Source: a virus. Taken from it: DNA of 26,574 nucleotides. Numbering within the stretch: the stretch's first letter is position 1; each line of letters begins with the position of its first letter. Under the pieces are notes generated by a model, which saw only the letters and a list, made by a program, of their open reading frames with translations, searched no databases and was not told where the DNA came from. Shown in pieces: positions 1,911 through 15,640 of the stretch. The translations under genes were made by a program, and so were the position numbers. Location: the IMG/VR virus record IMGVR_UViG_3300030329_004786, positions 1 through 26,574 of that record. One strand, written 5' to 3'.

Positions 1911-1935
1911 TATTGTTTACAATGGTTAATTAAAT
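1911..1935. promoter_or_regulatory. Dispersed operator-like element, copy 1
   Basis: Core AATGGTTAATT at 1921-1931 preceded by the half site TGTTTAC. It lies between the VWA gene and the next gene downstream. The TAA stop of the VWA gene (1932-1930) is embedded in the core. One of nine intergenic copies in the window. Confidence 0.65.
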
Positions 1936-3342
1936 ATTATGCCCTGCAACTGGCAGGAACACATGCTCACCAGGGAACTGTGCATTCCATTGCGGATTCC
2001 ACTGGGTTGCTACCCACATGATTGGGTAGTCTTGTTCTTCAATCGGCATAGCACCCATGTCCGTAAGGAACATGACACACGCAGGGACATCATCCTCACC
2101 TCCATCTTCGACTACTCTATTGATGTAATCGATAGGAGCCTGAAAACAAGTCCCACCATTACCATGCCTTTCCCATTTGATGGGCATGTCATTTTTTGTG
2201 TAGTTCGTAACAGACAAGACTTCGTGATCAAACTGAATCACGACAATTTCAAGGTCATCTACTGGATGGTGTACAATGACATCCTCGAATACCTTGAAGA
2301 AAACCCTGTCTTCACGAACAGAAACAGACCCAGACATATCTCCGCAGATATAAATCTTGCCCATCTCCATACCTCCTAAGCTCGGCAAATACCATTTGCG
2401 ATTATATTGAAGTAACCGCTTTTTAGGCTTTGCCCAATCAGGCTCAGATTTGGCTGGACGCTCCATGAACTCTTTCAAGACTTCGTACACATCAATAGGG
2501 GCTTTTCTTACAGCCTCTACAGCACGTATCGTCTTAACAGAGCCTTGTCCATGCATCTTAGCACCTTCAGTTGCACGAACGACTACGCTAGTCCAATTAT
2601 CGAACTCTTCCTGATAATCCTCAGGCTCAACGACTGATTCTTCAGGAACATATTCGTAGTCTTCAATTTCCATGGCTTCTTGAGGCTCCCCAGCATCAGA
2701 TTGCTCGTCAGCTTTCTGCTCTTCTTCCTTCTTCGACAGCTCCTTGACATCAGGTGGGGCGTCATGCACTTCACCACTATACTTTGAGGAGTCTTCGAAA
2801 AGCTCATCAATGATCTCTTCTTCGGACTTTGCCTGCTGAGTATTGTCTTGGGACTGCCCACCTCCTGGTTGGCTCTGATTCCCACTCTGTCGTGGATCTT
2901 TCCCCTGCTTAATCTCTGAGAGCAAGATGTCGTATATCTCCTCTGCTGTAAGCTTGAAGAATCGCTCATCCAACAACGCATCCTTAGGAACGTCAAAGCC
3001 TTCCTGATAAAGCAAAGCGTTGTCAGCATAGTCACAAGCTACATTCCAAAGCTTGTGGTCACGATTACCACGACGTATGTGGTGTAAGAGCATAGGATGG
3101 TTGATCTCGTGCATGAGAAAGAAATCTACATGCGCCTGAATCAGACCAGCTATGAAGGCTGGGTTAAACGCTAGATAAACTCCGTTTACCCATCCCGTGG
3201 GGTGATTCCAATCAACCTTAAGCGTCAGTTTCTCATAAAAAATCTGAGCTAAGACTGGGAATCTTGAGATGAGGTAAGCAATGGAGAAATTGATTTTCTC
3301 CTGAGCTATCCGCAGCGTTTTTGCCTTGGTTTCTTCATCCAT
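1930..3342 (-). CDS. DUF2201-like protein: HExxH metallopeptidase-like domain plus VWA domain
   Basis: 470 residues from ATG 3342, chosen because GGAG lies 6 bases upstream; an in-frame ATG four codons earlier overlaps that site. Residues 1-145 match the DUF2201 N-terminal pattern: MHEINHPMLLHH (HEINH at 78-82) and WNVACDYADN at 99-108, the zincin-like signature of this family. Residues about 150-246 are a low-complexity Q/G then strongly acidic linker. The C-terminal part is a VWA-like fold with MIDAS residues visible: DMSGS 335-339, Thr398 in NGGTC, Asp428 in LTDMG. Such proteins partner MoxR-type AAA+ ATPases, and one is encoded upstream at 7181-8458. Metal binding is inferred from motifs; target unknown. 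Confidence 0.85.
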   Translation of the reverse strand: MDEETKAKTLRIAQEKINFSIAYLISRFPVLAQIFYEKLTLKVDWNHPTGWVNGVYLAFNPAFIAGLIQAHVDFFLMHEINHPMLLHHIRRGNRDHKLWNVACDYADNALLYQEGFDVPKDALLDERFFKLTAEEIYDILLSEIKQGKDPRQSGNQSQPGGGQSQDNTQQAKSEEEIIDELFEDSSKYSGEVHDAPPDVKELSKKEEEQKADEQSDAGEPQEAMEIEDYEYVPEESVVEPEDYQEEFDNWTSVVVRATEGAKMHGQGSVKTIRAVEAVRKAPIDVYEVLKEFMERPAKSEPDWAKPKKRLLQYNRKWYLPSLGGMEMGKIYICGDMSGSVSVREDRVFFKVFEDVIVHHPVDDLEIVVIQFDHEVLSVTNYTKNDMPIKWERHGNGGTCFQAPIDYINRVVEDGGEDDVPACVMFLTDMGAMPIEEQDYPIMWVATQWNPQWNAQFPGEHVFLPVAGHNI

Positions 3343-3360
3343 AAAAAACTCCATTCAAAA

Positions 3361-4596: not shown

Positions 4597-4863
4597 TTAC
4601 TCCAACTTCATGGTTAATTGATTGGGGTCATACTCACAATATTCAGGTAGTGGTGGGGCGAACTGTTTTTTCAGCTCGTCAAGCCACACCTGATATGGGT
4701 AGTAGTTCCTCATAGTGAACGGATAGAACTTTAAGCTGACAAACTTTCGGGCTTCATCGAATTTACCCTCTTCCACCAGCTTAATCACTCTTGCATCCGT
4801 TTTTGCTTCAGTGATAGTTGCTTTCGCAAGATCACGCCAAGTTTCTTTAGCCATTTTGTACAC
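4597..4863 (-). CDS. Conserved-looking small phage protein of unknown function
   Basis: 88 residues if the GTG at 4863 is used, 85 if ATG 4854 is used (MAKETWRDLAKATITEA). Neither has a clear Shine-Dalgarno, and both lie inside or next to the 3' end of the HTH gene, so coupling is likely. The segment MRNYYPYQVWLDELKKQ resembles short phage proteins I have seen with a YPYKVW-type motif, but no function is known to me. The 3' end contains ATGGTTAATTG, a coding match to the operator core. Confidence 0.65.
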   Translation of the reverse strand: MYKMAKETWRDLAKATITEAKTDARVIKLVEEGKFDEARKFVSLKFYPFTMRNYYPYQVWLDELKKQFAPPLPEYCEYDPNQLTMKLE

Positions 4864-5023
4864 GGGTTTTTTCTATCATTTTTTCGAAAGCCCTACGTGT
4901 TATGTAAAGTTTTCTGTTTGGTCTAAACGCTTCCAATTTGCCTTCATTTATCCATCTTCTTACAGTATGTGGTGTTACTTTAAGTTCTGAAGAAATGCTT
5001 TGGACAGTGTTAAAATCTTTCAT
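4847..5023 (-). CDS. Excisionase-like small helix-turn-helix protein
   Basis: 58 residues from ATG 5023, chosen because GGAG sits 6 bases upstream. Nearly the whole protein fits the excisionase / MerR-like HTH_17 family: TVQSISSELKVTPHTVRRWI, a wing with GKLEAFRPNRKLYI, and a final helix. Such proteins bind DNA as excision factors or as small regulators. It lies about 9 kb from the integrase, in the leftward cluster. Whether it is the excisionase or a regulator cannot be told from sequence. Confidence 0.8.
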   Translation of the reverse strand: MKDFNTVQSISSELKVTPHTVRRWINEGKLEAFRPNRKLYITRRAFEKMIEKTRVQNG

Positions 5024-5024
5024 C

Positions 5025-5255
5025 TTAGACTCCATTCTTTAATGGGAAATAACGACATGGCGTCCATTGCCTATCGTAATTTTCTAATCTGTCGGAGAAT
5101 ATCGCTCCTTTCCAACTTTTCGCACTTAACATTGAGTCAGTCCAAACTAGGATTTTGTCTGACTTCATAATGTTTTTAATTTCAAGTGCGTAAAGTTTTC
5201 CATTGCGATCCACAACAGCGTATTTAAGTGATAATGACCTATCCAAGATAGTCAT
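5025..5255 (-). CDS. Hypothetical small protein
   Basis: 76 residues; ATG 5255 overlaps the upstream stop as ATGA and a GAGGAGGA purine run lies just before it inside the upstream gene. Begins MTILDRSLSLKYAVVDRNGK; Lys- and Trp-containing, soluble. No family recognised. Confidence 0.65.
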   Translation of the reverse strand: MTILDRSLSLKYAVVDRNGKLYALEIKNIMKSDKILVWTDSMLSAKSWKGAIFSDRLENYDRQWTPCRYFPLKNGV

Positions 5256-5533
5256 TCATCCTCCTCCTGTTCATCCATTTTTTCGTATGCGCCCCAATCC
5301 TCATGCGCTGTAATCCAACCTAGCAAGTGATCCTTGGTGGCCCTTGCTCGCTGTTCAGCATCAGCACAACCATAATCATTCGCGATTTCACGCAGTTGAT
5401 CTTCAGTCATGTTGCACAAGACATTAAGCCTGTTAATATTTTTTTGAAGCGGTGAGACTAATGGGAGAGAACGCATTGCGTCACTCGTCATCATACGTCC
5501 TTGCGCATCAGCCAAAATATTTAAATCGTTCAC
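5252..5533 (-). CDS. Hypothetical protein with acidic C-terminus
   Basis: 93 residues starting with GTG 5533, which overlaps the upstream TGA as GTGA; AAGGAG lies 6 bases before it. A helical middle part (NMTEDQLREIANDYGC) has a SAP-like look but is not a clear match. The C-terminal EQEEDE is encoded by the purine run that serves the next gene. Confidence 0.65.
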   Translation of the reverse strand: MNDLNILADAQGRMMTSDAMRSLPLVSPLQKNINRLNVLCNMTEDQLREIANDYGCADAEQRARATKDHLLGWITAHEDWGAYEKMDEQEEDE

Positions 5534-6078
5534 AAAATCTCCTTACCGGCTACGAGATTCATGATTTCTGCTGCTTCAGCATACGTCCCTGCGACTGCAA
5601 GTTTGATCCTTGCGCCACTAAACGGGTCTATGGAAGCTTCACGCTCTGCCTGTATTGAACCAACAAGCTTTGTTTGGCATTTGAAAGCTCGATCAATCTC
5701 AGTACTTGCACCATAAGATTGACCAACATGGACTTGCCAATTTCCTGAATGCGCTTTTTCGTCTTCAATAAAACGTCCTTGCGAATCGACGCCATTTTTC
5801 GCTAATACAAGAAAGCAAGCTTCTATGCTGGCAACTAATCCATTGATGTCTTTTAAAGCACTTTGAATCTCAGGATTATTGTCAACGTACTCAGATTTTA
5901 GCTTATCGATATTATGCGATCTTTGATTAAGCGCTAAAGTTGTCCTACCTTCAACCAACTGATCAAATTCCTTTAATAGAATCTTTGTGTGACCCTGATT
6001 CAGCTTTTTGTCACGATCAGTAGGGATCTGGGCTAAGGCGTTTTGGGTTTGTTCTGAAACCATTAATTCTGTACTCAT
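5530..6078 (-). CDS. Hypothetical protein
   Basis: 182 residues from ATG 6078 (MSTELMVSEQTQNALAQ), with GGAG in the shared block ATGGAGTTTATTATG. Predominantly helical at the N-terminus, with a more globular C-terminal half. No match to RecT, Beta or SSB families is visible, although its place in an early cluster with a YqaJ nuclease would suit a recombination partner. Preceded by a structured leader. Confidence 0.7.
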   Translation of the reverse strand: MSTELMVSEQTQNALAQIPTDRDKKLNQGHTKILLKEFDQLVEGRTTLALNQRSHNIDKLKSEYVDNNPEIQSALKDINGLVASIEACFLVLAKNGVDSQGRFIEDEKAHSGNWQVHVGQSYGASTEIDRAFKCQTKLVGSIQAEREASIDPFSGARIKLAVAGTYAEAAEIMNLVAGKEIL

Positions 6079-7180: not shown

Positions 7181-8458
7181 TTACGCAGCCTGCTTGAAAG
7201 TATCGATCTTGTGATACTTCTGTTTGAACTCGACATATCCTGAGTCTGGGTCACAAAGAATGGATTCAATTCCTTTATTCCTTTTAGCTGACCCTTCCAG
7301 GTTTTTAGCAAACACAATAGGAAGCTCAGGTGAAAACTGGGTTAATCTCCCGATCCATTTGAATATTTCACGAGAAGTCTTAGCTTTGAAATGCATCCCA
7401 GTCGACAGCGCCCCAATCGCCATGTACAAAATCCCCATGCGATAAGACCCGTCTTCAGGTAAAGGAGCATTATCCCCATCAGCCTTTACAGCGTTATAAT
7501 CAATCTCCTGCTTTAGAAGCTTTAGCGTTTGAATAAATTCTTCTGCTGGGCCTGGGCCTATACACCCATGAGCCATTGGCTTGAAGACGAAATCATACGC
7601 TTCTTGTCCTAAATATTGACAAGTAAGGAAGATTTTGGAGAAATACTCGACTGACCGGTTGGTAGAATACGCATAATCTTCCTGCTTGATACGCTCGGTA
7701 TCGAGAGTATTCATCAAGCTAGGCCGGTTTGACAGCCAACTGGCTATACTGGAGTTGACACCCTTTGGACAATCCCAATCAGGTATCTTTGTAAGATCGA
7801 TTGGAATGTCTCCTGGGTAGAGCTTGAAGTCTTGCTGAGCAAGTTCAGCCCATGAAATAGCACAGCGCCCACCATCAGACATCTGACCATGCATTTCAGC
7901 TAAACACCCATCATCCAAGTAAATCCAGCACCTCCTGTTAGCCTCTGCTGGTGTAGCCTTATCCCCAAGACCTTTGTGGCGTGACATATTATCAGAACAT
8001 ATCTGACTCCATCCATCACCAAGATAATGCTCACCAATCCTACGCTCAGCAAGAGATTGCATGATTGCTTTACGGATGTCTTTACCACCCATAAAGTATT
8101 CTGACCAATTGACCATACCAACGCCTTTCTCAGGATACATAGCAAAGCGTTTGGTTGTTGTGTAGGCTCTATCCTTATTTAAATAGGGATGATCTGGCCC
8201 AGCTACTCCATCATCAAAGAGACCTTTAATGTCAATCCCTTCATGTTGAGCAGCCCTGATGTCGGCATTACCGAAGTTACGATAATGTTCCCAGTCAGCA
8301 CACTGCTCACGGAATGCTTCGGTTACAGTCACTGCCATACCATCTTTTCCTTGACCAGGAGCAGACAAAGTATGCAGGTTAGTCCTTGCACCGTGATTAA
8401 CAACCATCGCTGCCATGGCTTCCCAATGGTCAACGTGATAATAGTCTTCTATTGACAT
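7181..8458 (-). CDS. MoxR-like AAA+ ATPase
   Basis: 425 residues from ATG 8458, chosen for the GGAG 8-9 bases upstream. Walker A-like loop SAPGQGKDG at 32-40; a Walker B position at 112-122 reads GVGMVNWSEYF, keeping Glu120 but with Ser where Asp is usual. RRIGEHYLGDGWSQICSDN at 139-157 matches the MoxR region leading to sensor 1, and ANRRCWIYLDD at about 173-183 fits the arginine-finger strand. The C-terminal part has the NRPSLMNTLD segment typical of the MoxR lid. Family members are chaperone-like ATPases working with VWA proteins; the VWA partner is at 1930-3342. The unusual Walker B may mean altered hydrolysis. Confidence 0.8.
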   Translation of the reverse strand: MSIEDYYHVDHWEAMAAMVVNHGARTNLHTLSAPGQGKDGMAVTVTEAFREQCADWEHYRNFGNADIRAAQHEGIDIKGLFDDGVAGPDHPYLNKDRAYTTTKRFAMYPEKGVGMVNWSEYFMGGKDIRKAIMQSLAERRIGEHYLGDGWSQICSDNMSRHKGLGDKATPAEANRRCWIYLDDGCLAEMHGQMSDGGRCAISWAELAQQDFKLYPGDIPIDLTKIPDWDCPKGVNSSIASWLSNRPSLMNTLDTERIKQEDYAYSTNRSVEYFSKIFLTCQYLGQEAYDFVFKPMAHGCIGPGPAEEFIQTLKLLKQEIDYNAVKADGDNAPLPEDGSYRMGILYMAIGALSTGMHFKAKTSREIFKWIGRLTQFSPELPIVFAKNLEGSAKRNKGIESILCDPDSGYVEFKQKYHKIDTFKQAA

Positions 8459-8485
8459 AGAAAAACTCCATATTTGTATAAAAAA

Positions 8486-8551
8486 GAGCAAAAGCGCTCA
8501 CGCACTAACTCAGAGATTAGAGTTAGCGCAAGACTACCTCTTGGGAAGTAG
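8486..8551 (-). other. Hairpin series in the AAA+ ATPase leader, one terminator-like
   Basis: On the minus strand: CTACTT/AGGTAG (8534-8551, one G-U pair), CTAACTC/GAGTTAG (8505-8526, 8-nt loop), then GAGC/GCTC (8486-8499) followed directly by six T. The last stem is short but terminator-like and lies between the 90-residue gene and the ATPase, so it may attenuate transcription into the ATPase. Confidence 0.55.
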
Positions 8552-13040: not shown

Positions 13041-13674
13041 CGTTAAGTTGGAAGAGCCTCTTCATGGTAAAAACCATGATTTTATTTATGAGATATTTAA
13101 AATGCACTCAGAAGCTCATATAAAAGGGAAAGCTGGGATTGATCACTTTTTCGTAAGAGAAAACAAGCGATATGGAGGTACTACCAAGGGGCTTTGGCTA
13201 AAAACTCCAGACGGCAAGGAGATTGACTTTAGCTGGGTTGATGCACTAACACCTAAGACGCGTAGACAAAAGGTTATGTACGCTATGAGGGGAGCAATAC
13301 AAGAACAGCTTTACCAAAAAAAGAGATTTCATTTTAAAGGTAATAAATTCCCAAGGTGTGAACTTTCAGGAGTCCCGATTACGTTCACGAATTGTGACTG
13401 CCATCACATAAAGCCTTTATATGATATTATCGTAGAATTCCTTAATGAGGATTATGTTGGCCTTCATATAGGGTCTAAAGGTGATTGGGATGCAGTACAT
13501 ATCGACTCAAAAGCATGCGAGGCTCAATTCGGAGATTACCTTACAGACAAGGTATTTAAGAAAATGTGGCAGTCTTACCATAAAGAACATGCGTCATTGG
13601 TTATAATACATAGAAGAAAACATCAGTCTTTTCCTAAACAGGCAAAATATGAAACAGAAAATTGTCGCAGTTAA
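12961..13674 (+). CDS. DUF3223 (DCL-like) domain protein with HNH-like C-terminal motif
   Basis: 237 residues. Residues about 10-93 match DUF3223, the domain of plant DCL proteins: SKEAVKKVIRG, EPLHGKNHDFIYEIFKMH, GLWLKTPDGKEIDFSW. Residues 131-152 read PRCELSGVPITFTNCDCHHIKP, with Cys133, Cys145, Cys147, His148 and His149 as in HNH-type zinc/nuclease motifs. The start at 12961 has AAGG 6 bases upstream; ATG 12973 is an alternative. It overlaps both neighbours. A nucleic-acid-cleaving or binding role is inferred from the motif, not shown. Confidence 0.75.
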   Translation: MAGIMVGNKFYPSKEAVKKVIRGIVSSVKLEEPLHGKNHDFIYEIFKMHSEAHIKGKAGIDHFFVRENKRYGGTTKGLWLKTPDGKEIDFSWVDALTPKTRRQKVMYAMRGAIQEQLYQKKRFHFKGNKFPRCELSGVPITFTNCDCHHIKPLYDIIVEFLNEDYVGLHIGSKGDWDAVHIDSKACEAQFGDYLTDKVFKKMWQSYHKEHASLVIIHRRKHQSFPKQAKYETENCRS

Positions 13675-14170
13675 CCAGAAAAAGCAAAAAACTAAGACAA
13701 ATCTTGCCTTATTGAAGGTGGATTATGAGGGTGGAATTATGACCCGTGCTGAAATTGCAGAGAAGCATGGGATTAATAAGAGCACCCTGTATCGTCATGC
13801 CGTCAATAACACATGGCAGTTCGGTAAGAATCAGGAAAAAGCATTAACAGCAATGCAGACAGCCATGGTGAGGCGTTTAGGGGAGCGCAGAGCTGAGGTG
13901 AATGACCAGCATTTAGTAGAATTAAATGAGATTAAAGAGGATTTGTTCAAAGCTACTGAAATAAAGGAGGTCAAAATCCTATCGGATAAAACTGAAGCTT
14001 TACTGAAGATCATACGTGGTGAGCGTTTAGCTCTGGGACTCCCCAGCGATTACAAATATGTCGAGCAGAAGAACGAGACGACGTTTAAAGTCGAGGATGC
14101 TTTAAGGGAACTGGATACAATTAATGGGGATTATACAGAAGTGAGTGATGATGCTTCACTCCCGGCATAA
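13649..14170 (+). CDS. Terminase small subunit
   Basis: 173 residues, overlapping the upstream gene by 26 bases. Residues 31-56 form a helix-turn-helix (TRAEIAEKHGINKSTLYRHA) typical of the DNA-recognition domain of small terminase subunits. A long helical middle (ERRAEVNDQHLVELNEIKED) would oligomerise, and the acidic C-terminus (SDDASLPA end) would meet the large subunit. The large subunit is not adjacent but follows the integrase cassette at 16398, so integration genes interrupt the packaging module. Confidence 0.75.
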   Translation: MKQKIVAVNQKKQKTKTNLALLKVDYEGGIMTRAEIAEKHGINKSTLYRHAVNNTWQFGKNQEKALTAMQTAMVRRLGERRAEVNDQHLVELNEIKEDLFKATEIKEVKILSDKTEALLKIIRGERLALGLPSDYKYVEQKNETTFKVEDALRELDTINGDYTEVSDDASLPA

Positions 14171-14180
14171 CGGTAGATGA

Positions 14181-14234
14181 ACGGAAGATCAGACTCTCTG
14201 GTATGTATTTTTGTAAGTGTTTGAAGGGAAGATA
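14181..14234 (+). repeat. Left-side arm-type repeats of attP (candidate integrase sites)
   Basis: ACGGAAGATC at 14181-14190 and the variant AGGGAAGATA at 14225-14234, in the same orientation as two more copies on the other side of the core. Direct repeats flanking a tRNA-like core next to an integrase gene are the expected layout of arm-binding sites. Confidence 0.6.
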
Positions 14235-14236
14235 AA

Positions 14237-14288
14237 GTGGAGCACCAGATTTTGAGTCTGGCGTGTCTACCAGTTTCACCACCTCGGC
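14237..14288 (-). other. attP core: 5' part of a tRNA-Leu(CAA)
   Basis: On the minus strand, from 14288: GCCGAGGTGGTGAAACTGGT, then AGACACGC, a perfect 5-bp anticodon stem CCAGA/TCTGG enclosing loop CTCAAAA (anticodon CAA), then GTGCTCCAC. The acceptor 5' strand, D-arm and anticodon arm are all tRNA-Leu-like, but no T-arm or 3' acceptor follows. A truncated tRNA immediately past the integrase stop (28 bases) is best read as the attachment core matching a host tRNA-Leu gene. Confidence 0.82.
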
Positions 14289-14293
14289 AGGAA

Positions 14294-14308
14294 GTGTTTA
14301 CAAGGGTA
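14294..14308 (+). promoter_or_regulatory. Degenerate operator-like element near attP
   Basis: TGTTTACAAGGGTATAA resembles the half site plus core of the dispersed element (TGTTTACAATGGTTAATTAA in copy 2), but the core is not conserved. It lies between the integrase stop and the attP core. Listed as tentative. Confidence 0.25.
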
Positions 14309-14316
14309 TAAGGTTG

Positions 14317-15465
14317 TCATTTCTTCTTTGACGGAAGATCAACGGAAGATCGCCATTGTAATTCATCCAAAGCCTTCTTGTTTTCGAGGCTTTTAGAGTT
14401 GGCGTATTTTCGGGTTGTTGTAACATCTTTGTGTCTCAAGATCCCCTGCACTGTCACTATGTTAATTCCGTTTTTTAGTAGTCTTGTGCAAACAGTGGCC
14501 CGTATCCCGTGAACTGGTTTCGGGATTTCAGTCATTCCTATGTCTTTAGCGTGCTGTTTTATAGCACGAGCGACATCTGCTGACCGCTTATAAGCCCTAT
14601 CTCCTCTACCATTGTCACAAAACCAACGCTCATGTTCACCTCTCGAGGATAAATCCTCAAGAAGAAACTTGTAGAGAGCTTCAGATATATCAATACCCCC
14701 GTCCTCACGGTTGCCTTTTATACTAAAACCCTTCTTTTCACGGAGCAATAGACTGCGATCCCCCAGTTTAATGTCCTGAAGGCGTAGGTAGAATATCTCA
14801 GAGCAGCGCATTCCAGTTTCCATAGCCACCACAAAAACCCTTAATTGAGCCAAGCGATGAAATCTATACCTGAAATGCGCCTTTGCGTTGGAGATGCTTA
14901 AGACGATTTTCTCTATAATAGAGTAAAGCTCGTCTTCTGTGTAAATTCGCGGGTCTTTTTGGGTAACTTTTGGGAATTTAATGAAAGGTCGGTGCTCAAG
15001 AAGCTTCGCCTCGACACAAAACCCAAAAAATGCCCTTAATTGCCTTAATTGCGAGTGAACTGTCGCTTTTGCAAGACCCTTTTTCTCCAGAACTCTTCGG
15101 TAACTTAGAGTTTCTCGTATAGATATTTCCTCCAGTTTGACGTTACCCGTCACTTTAAGGAATCTTCTTCCCGTTAACTCGTATAGCTCGAGAGTTCTGG
15201 GGTCTTCAATGCTCTCATACCATAAATTGAGAGCTTCTTTTACTCTGGTATCTCCAAGTCCTGGTCGTCTAGGCTTGTTTTGCAAACGTGCAGCAACAGC
15301 TTCCCATCTCGAGATAAGGTAATCGTAATCCTCCTCTGGACATTCACTGTATGTTGCGATAACCCGCCTAGAAGCTCTTTTATCGGGGTCTTCACTGGAA
15401 CGGAAATACCCAATCCAAGCCTTGTCCCTTTGGTCATACCCCCAAAGCTTTCTTGGAGTCGGCAT
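14317..15465 (-). CDS. int: Tyrosine-family site-specific integrase
   Basis: 382 residues. N-terminal arm-binding region about 1-70, core-binding SAM-like domain about 70-165, catalytic domain from about 170. Catalytic residues visible: Arg220 in METGMRCSEI, a Lys near 244-250, His319 and Arg322 in VHGIRAT, His345 in ILRHKDVTT and Tyr354 in TRKYAN. It would recombine attP with a host tRNA-Leu gene. The start at 15465 overlaps a short upstream ORF by 32 bases. Its last codons read through two tandem ACGGAAGATC repeats, which may be its own binding sites. Confidence 0.93.
   Translation of the reverse strand: MPTPRKLWGYDQRDKAWIGYFRSSEDPDKRASRRVIATYSECPEEDYDYLISRWEAVAARLQNKPRRPGLGDTRVKEALNLWYESIEDPRTLELYELTGRRFLKVTGNVKLEEISIRETLSYRRVLEKKGLAKATVHSQLRQLRAFFGFCVEAKLLEHRPFIKFPKVTQKDPRIYTEDELYSIIEKIVLSISNAKAHFRYRFHRLAQLRVFVVAMETGMRCSEIFYLRLQDIKLGDRSLLLREKKGFSIKGNREDGGIDISEALYKFLLEDLSSRGEHERWFCDNGRGDRAYKRSADVARAIKQHAKDIGMTEIPKPVHGIRATVCTRLLKNGINIVTVQGILRHKDVTTTRKYANSKSLENKKALDELQWRSSVDLPSKKK
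14331..14351 (+). repeat. Right-side arm-type repeats of attP inside the 3' end of int
   Basis: Two copies of ACGGAAGATC, at 14331-14340 and 14342-14351, 11 bases apart, about one helical turn. They encode part of the integrase C-terminus and match the copy at 14181 across the attP core. Confidence 0.6.
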
Positions 15466-15640
15466 GTTCGTCCATAAATTTGGTCACTGTAGCCTTGATA
15501 TACTCTTGGGTAAGAGCGATGTGCGAATGACCTAATAATTTCTGAAGTCTTCTGACGTTTTTATTGATTTGAATTGAGAGTGATTCTTCAAGCCCACAAT
15601 CGCTTTCAAGCATCTGTCTTAAATGTCGGTAAGTAAGCAT
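15434..15640 (-). CDS. Short ORF resembling the C-terminus of a tyrosine recombinase
   Basis: 68 residues with a purine-rich site (AAGGGAAGG) 2 bases before ATG 15640. Residues 30-52 read RRLQKLLGHSHIALTQEYIKA, which matches the LGH...T..Y end of tyrosine recombinases including a Tyr in the nucleophile position; TYRHLRQM near the start could be a degraded HxxR box. The catalytic Arg I region is absent, so it cannot be an active recombinase. It ends 32 bases inside int in another frame. It may be a remnant of a replaced integrase or a coupled regulator peptide. Confidence 0.6.
   Translation of the reverse strand: MLTYRHLRQMLESDCGLEESLSIQINKNVRRLQKLLGHSHIALTQEYIKATVTKFMDEHADSKKALGV

Follow-up and report, generated by a model that had tools for sequence, protein, structure and literature searches.

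A predicted phage attachment site bearing the 5' half of tRNA-Leu(CAA) beside a tyrosine integrase gene in an IMG/VR virus record

The virus record IMGVR_UViG_3300030329_004786, analysed here in its entirety (the window: a linear fragment of 26,574 bases), carries beside a tyrosine integrase gene a segment that sequence comparison well supports as a phage attachment site (attP) bearing the 5' half of tRNA-Leu(CAA). We consider it very probable that this segment serves a tailed phage as its attP, and that integrase-mediated exchange with the matching host gene would rebuild a complete tRNA behind the integrase gene. The initial annotation of this DNA had proposed an attP built on a tRNA 5' half, a proposal that is supported by the adjoining integrase, the arm-like repeats around the core, the phage genes on both sides and a simulated junction at which the tRNA is restored.

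The attachment core, its matching tRNA gene and the arm-like repeats

The minus strand from 14288 to 14237 reads GCCGAGGTGGTGAAACTGGTAGACACGCCAGACTCAAAATCTGGTGCTCCAC, which had been described as a 52-base core running from the first tRNA base through the anticodon arm. The start, the arm, the perfect anticodon stem (CCAGA/TCTGG, five of five pairs) and the CAA anticodon within the loop CTCAAAA all held, though the length did not, as 46 rather than 52 bases are shared with an intact tRNA-Leu(CAA) gene. The shared part extends from tRNA position +1 (14288) through the whole anticodon arm and two bases into the variable arm, and divergence begins after nucleotide (nt) 46 (GTGG versus GTGC). Identity stops just past the anticodon arm, as a crossover in the anticodon loop would lead one to expect; the overlap is placed there by analogy with known tyrosine-recombinase sites in anticodon arms (PMC8371274). 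ARAGORN called no complete tRNA in this 26.6-kb fragment, as half a tRNA gene would predict, and the Rfam tRNA model gave a sub-threshold match to the core (18.9 bits), the 3' half being missing. The half tRNA folded alone as RNA did not form the cloverleaf arms, and the fold was not used. Exact and degenerate scans of the viral contig collection revealed no second copy of the core.

The initial annotation had suggested a search of the core against bacterial tRNA-Leu genes, and this search returned a tRNA-Leu(CAA) matching from +1 at 46 of 46 positions. The first 44 nt of the core had a single exact match in a genome collection of ~85,000 species, namely the intact 85-nt tRNA-Leu(CAA) gene of the deep-sea bacterial metagenome-assembled genome (MAG) Dive96_bin4.205 (locus L002 of genome G001). 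The core was matched only once within this MAG, and one further genome among the 52 of its phylum in the collection matched with two mismatches. The L002 gene is preceded by TTGACA and followed by a terminator-like hairpin, and TTG is the most frequent leucine codon (112 of 309) in six open reading frames (ORFs) beside it.

The integrase gene and the tRNA half are co-directional, both on the minus strand, and alignment showed the catalytic residues of the integrase to be intact (R220, K250, H319, R322, H345 and Y354). Phage genes flank the site on both sides, the integrase gene on one and a small-terminase-like gene on the other, indicating that it is an attP and not attL or attR.

The repeat ACGGAAGATC is exact at 14181, 14331 and 14342 and has no further exact copy on either strand of the window; AGGGAAGATA lies at 14225, and a degenerate copy, ACGGTAGATG, at 14170. 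The initial annotation had listed the first four of these in one orientation, all of which are present, though it had overlooked the fifth, at 14170. The repeats thus form one tandem pair at 11 bp on either side of the core, with a single further copy adjoining it, all in the same orientation, and the two right-hand copies (14331 and 14342) do encode part of the integrase C-terminus, as had been noted. Any 10-mer was present three times in only 3 of 2638 200-bp windows, all overlapping the attP site, and three copies of a 10-mer within 200 bp arose in 9 of 20,000 random order-1 sequences; chance is a poor explanation for the cluster. The repeats are candidate arm-type integrase binding sites. 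Near copies of the motif (9/10, GATCTTCAGT) also occur at 14002-14011 (minus strand) in the small-terminase-like gene and at 5398-5407 (plus strand), probably by chance. The features are collected in Table 1.

Table 1. Features of the attP region and associated genes (positions in the window)
Feature	Position	Strand	Evidence or remark
attP core, nt 1-46 of tRNA-Leu(CAA)	14243..14288	-	46/46 identity to the intact gene in L002/G001
Last six bases of the initially proposed core	14237..14242	-	CTCCAC in phage, GCTTCG in L002; matched nothing found
Anticodon loop CTCAAAA, predicted 7-bp overlap (crossover) region	14250..14256	-	centre 14253
Putative inverted core-type sites flanking the predicted overlap	14257-14261 and 14245-14249	-	from sequence
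Gap from integrase stop codon to tRNA +1, 28 nt	14289..14316	-
Tyrosine integrase, 382 amino acids (aa)	14317..15465	-	PF00589 E=1.8e-19; PHROG phrog_1 E=4e-38
Arm-like site GATCTTCCGT, integrase side, within integrase coding sequence	14342..14351	-	exact
Arm-like site GATCTTCCGT, integrase side	14331..14340	-	exact; 11 bp from the 14342 copy
Arm-like site TATCTTCCCT, immediately outside the core	14225..14234	-	8/10
Arm-like site GATCTTCCGT, far side	14181..14190	-	exact
Arm-like site CATCTACCGT, far side	14170..14179	-	8/10; tandem with the 14181 copy at 11 bp
Small-terminase-like gene, opposite side of attP from integrase	13649..14170	+	phrog_1206 E=4.7e-6; 42% identical to L040 counterpart
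HTH_17 protein, 62 aa, candidate excisionase (directionality factor)	4847..5035	-	PF12728 E=1.5e-10; phrog_66 excisionase E=1.2e-6; putative role

Predicted integration and expression of the rebuilt tRNA

The junctions were simulated by joining attP to the L002 tRNA-Leu(CAA) gene as the bacterial site (attB), and tRNAs were called with ARAGORN. A full tRNA-Leu(CAA) was called at the integrase-side junction and at attB, whereas attP and the other junction gave no call. The expectation that the rebuilt tRNA would receive a phage-derived 5' half is thus met by the integrase-side junction, the host promoter lying at the other one. As the phage core corresponds to tRNA nt 1-46, the host promoter and the host 5' half would end up facing phage DNA.

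Considering these results, we propose the following scenario. The N-terminal domain of the integrase may bind the arm repeats and bridge them to the core sites of the anticodon stem, and strand exchange would take place across the 7-bp anticodon loop between the phage core and the same segment of the host tRNA-Leu(CAA). Integration would join the 5' half brought by the phage to the 3' half of the host gene, so that a complete tRNA-Leu(CAA) would begin 28 nt past the integrase stop codon, on the integrase strand. In the integrated state, the tRNA would be made by phage-side transcription, most simply by read-through from the integrase gene followed by normal tRNA processing. The arm binding, the crossover point and integrase-driven expression are those steps of the scenario that we infer.

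The 28-nt gap between the integrase gene and the tRNA contains no terminator-like site and no consensus promoter. The integrase gene being co-directional, with neither element before the tRNA, its read-through is the simplest source of the tRNA, and we regard it as the likeliest, if unproven, one. The initial annotation had argued that a phage-side promoter would be needed, which is a fair deduction, though integrase read-through, again unproven, would also serve. A TTATAC ending 17 nt before tRNA +1 was considered as a promoter and was too weak to count.

Relatives, comparable systems and neighbouring genes

A profile search with the integrase found 47 viral loci and additional loci in the phylum of the MAG. 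Downstream of the integrase gene and on its strand, tRNA 3' halves were present at 21 viral loci and at 10 genome loci, those at the genome loci being recognised by eye from the T-arm and acceptor end; no 5' half occurs among these 31 loci. In Islander, 3760 islands carry a 3' fragment and 159 a 5' fragment (159 of 3919, about 4%; PMC4383910). Both results bear out the earlier remark that it is the 3' part that tRNA-targeting phages mostly carry. The 5' islands of Islander have the attP on the 5' part, as here, and form a minority class, though they were mapped in the integrated state, whereas only a free attP is seen here. In related integrases (L019, L024, L054, L075 and others), the core lies just downstream of the integrase gene on its strand, as in the window, but it carries the tRNA 3' end, so that the host promoter still drives the rebuilt gene. 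A tRNA-Gly downstream of an integrase relative in G001 (L022) was considered as a second 5'-type case and rejected, as a tRNA 3' fragment intervenes and the tRNA-Gly is a separate gene. At L027 (3072-4680), an integrase relative precedes numerous direct repeats of the ATTCCGG type and, on the other strand, an intact tRNA-Arg(TCT), a layout unlike that of the other relatives.

No close viral relative emerged from the integrase search alone or from megablast against phage records. The phage locus L040 has the same gene order around attP, and its large terminase (terL), portal and small terminase (terS) are 62%, 57% and 42% identical, respectively, to those of the window, with an integrase identity of 27%. 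At 4265-4218 (minus strand), L040 bears a tRNA-His(GTG) 5' half that lies on the other strand from its integrase gene; it is the one viral integrase-relative locus recognised with a 5' half. From nt -2 to 48, this half shows full identity to tRNA-His genes in four genomes that belong to the same phylum. Around its core, ATTACCACAA occurs exactly five times, and four of these copies are arranged as tandem 11-bp pairs. The sequence GATAAT, found 8 nt before the L040 tRNA-His, was rejected as a promoter for want of a -35 element at 16-18 nt. In the candidate hosts of L040, a tRNA-Arg lies ~50 nt behind the tRNA-His, and both genes could thus end up behind the phage.

Both group members with a visible attP therefore use 5' halves, of different tRNAs and in opposite orientations relative to the integrase gene. 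A common origin of the two 5'-half integrases was not rejected (p-AU 0.318), the tree leaving their relationship unsettled. Only 2 of 61 related-terminase loci have an integrase, L111 (on the contig of L040) and L112 (on the contig of L056, which ends just after the integrase gene), and only 2 of 23 whole records of the phage group have a Phage_integrase match. The other 21 include contigs of 62, 51 and 41 kb, most records being fragments.

In T7-like cyanophages, attP lies directly downstream of the integrase gene and always matches the first half of tRNA-Leu; integration is lost upon deletion of the integrase gene or attP, and no stable lysogens are formed (PMC8776855). In P-SSP7, the sequence of which we checked, the tRNA-Leu 5' half begins 91 nt after the integrase gene on the same strand, a layout like that of the window, where the gap is 28 nt. 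However, the two integrases are barely related (29% identity over 122 aa), the phages belong to separate lineages, and the P-SSP7 half corresponds to another tRNA-Leu and stops within its anticodon loop. A 10-mer search around the P-SSP7 core revealed no comparable tandem pattern of arm repeats. At 5815-5860 of P-SSP7 (L157), a perfect TATAAT precedes the tRNA-Leu 5' half by ~19 nt, so the rebuilt tRNA may there be driven by a promoter that P-SSP7 itself supplies.

The archaeal element pTN3 also uses a tRNA-Leu 5' half as its site, the rebuilt tRNA being separated from its own promoter (PMC5495485) and described as expressed from the integrase promoter (PMC8371274). The window thus shares the tRNA-Leu 5' half with pTN3-like integrases, though these are archaeal. 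In the suicidal pTN3/SSV-type integrases, attP lies within the integrase gene, which is split upon integration, whereas here the core lies 28 nt past the integrase stop codon, only two arm-like repeats overlap the gene, and the gene would stay whole.

The HTH_17 candidate excisionase gene lies ~9 kb from the integrase gene. A 68-aa ORF (15434-15640, minus strand) overlaps the integrase start and shows similarity only to the last portion of tyrosine recombinases (LLGHSHIALTQEYIKAT; PF00589 E=0.004, phrog_216 E=8e-4); it may be left over from a former integrase gene of this locus. Elsewhere in the window, genes for a DUF2201 metallopeptidase/VWA-like protein (1930-3354, minus strand) and a phrog_1297 ATPase (7181-8491, minus strand) lie ~4 kb apart on the same strand.

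Alternative explanations and significance

Several points weigh against integration with a rebuilt, expressed tRNA. The record is a 26.6-kb fragment, and the matching MAG is a stand-in rather than a proven host. The attL and attR junctions are known by simulation only because no integrated copy of the phage was found, although no integrated relative at another site was found either. The search of G001's phylum for terminase relatives gave one marginal match only, indicating that it holds no prophage of this type. The expression step is weakened in that no sigma-70-like promoter reaching threshold lies between the integrase gene and the core. Furthermore, stable lysogeny is not supported because the scanned ORFs of the window include no recognised repressor. 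This last point favours an explanation that we regard as a credible though lesser possibility, in which attP is functional but integration is transient, the 5' half serving only as homology and cleavage site, so that expression of the tRNA hardly matters. S-TIP37 and P-SSP7 do integrate at tRNA-Leu through a first-half attP without stable lysogens (PMC8776855), and the 21 of 23 group records without a Phage_integrase match point in the same direction. However, the identity reaches exactly to tRNA +1 (in L040 to -2, with the extra 5' G of tRNA-His), suggesting selection for a functional tRNA; the window encodes a candidate excisionase; and the genome is seen only in part.

The rebuilt tRNA could instead be silent at a functional attP, the host coping since tRNA-Leu(UAA) can also read UUG by wobble; leuX is dispensable in Escherichia coli. 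The lack of a recognised promoter agrees with this. We nevertheless consider a silent tRNA improbable, as TTG is the commonest leucine codon in the six MAG ORFs and the core has a single match in the MAG, while the tRNA-His of the L040 candidate hosts has no known backup and is followed by a tRNA-Arg. It is highly unlikely that the phage practises tRNA-dependent lysogeny, in which the host tRNA is lost and the phage supplies a complete tRNA gene. Such lysogeny occurs at tRNA-Leu(CAA) in the mycobacteriophage Gaia, and a tRNA gene could lie outside the incomplete window, but a core of ~8-10 bp is shared with attB by such phages, which carry the tRNA themselves (PMC10865867), whereas here a 46-bp core rebuilds the tRNA and the 26.6-kb window contains no tRNA gene. 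That the segment is merely what decay has left of a captured tRNA gene, and no attachment site, is scarcely believable: tRNA fragments do occur in phages and integration was not observed here, but the 46 bases show no decay and end sharply at +1 and past the anticodon arm, an integrase gene and paired arm-like repeats on both sides adjoin them, and a second phage of the group carries the half of another tRNA at the equivalent position. A functional attP whose use would rebuild tRNA-Leu(CAA) behind the integrase gene thus accounts best for these features.

Attachment sites of this kind are already known, the 5'-half attP being a minority class among mobile elements. What is new is modest: the 5'-half design extends to a second phage lineage, at two different tRNAs, within an integrase group otherwise using 3' halves. 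This lineage is mostly without integrase, as are the cyanophages. It is conceivable, though on balance doubtful, that 5'-half attP sites recur among marine phage lineages that are mostly lytic and have acquired an integrase, represented by this lineage with its two very different integrases and by the T7-like cyanophages. Holding the promoter side of an important tRNA, possibly including the tRNA-Arg behind tRNA-His, might then tie host translation to phage transcription during integration. The site described here provides a clean, checkable case in which the phage, not the host, would supply the front of a rebuilt tRNA gene, and it yields host predictions for uncultured marine-type phages. 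Together with the tRNA-His phage, it opens the questions of when an integrase changes over from a 3' to a 5' half and of which partner then drives the tRNA.
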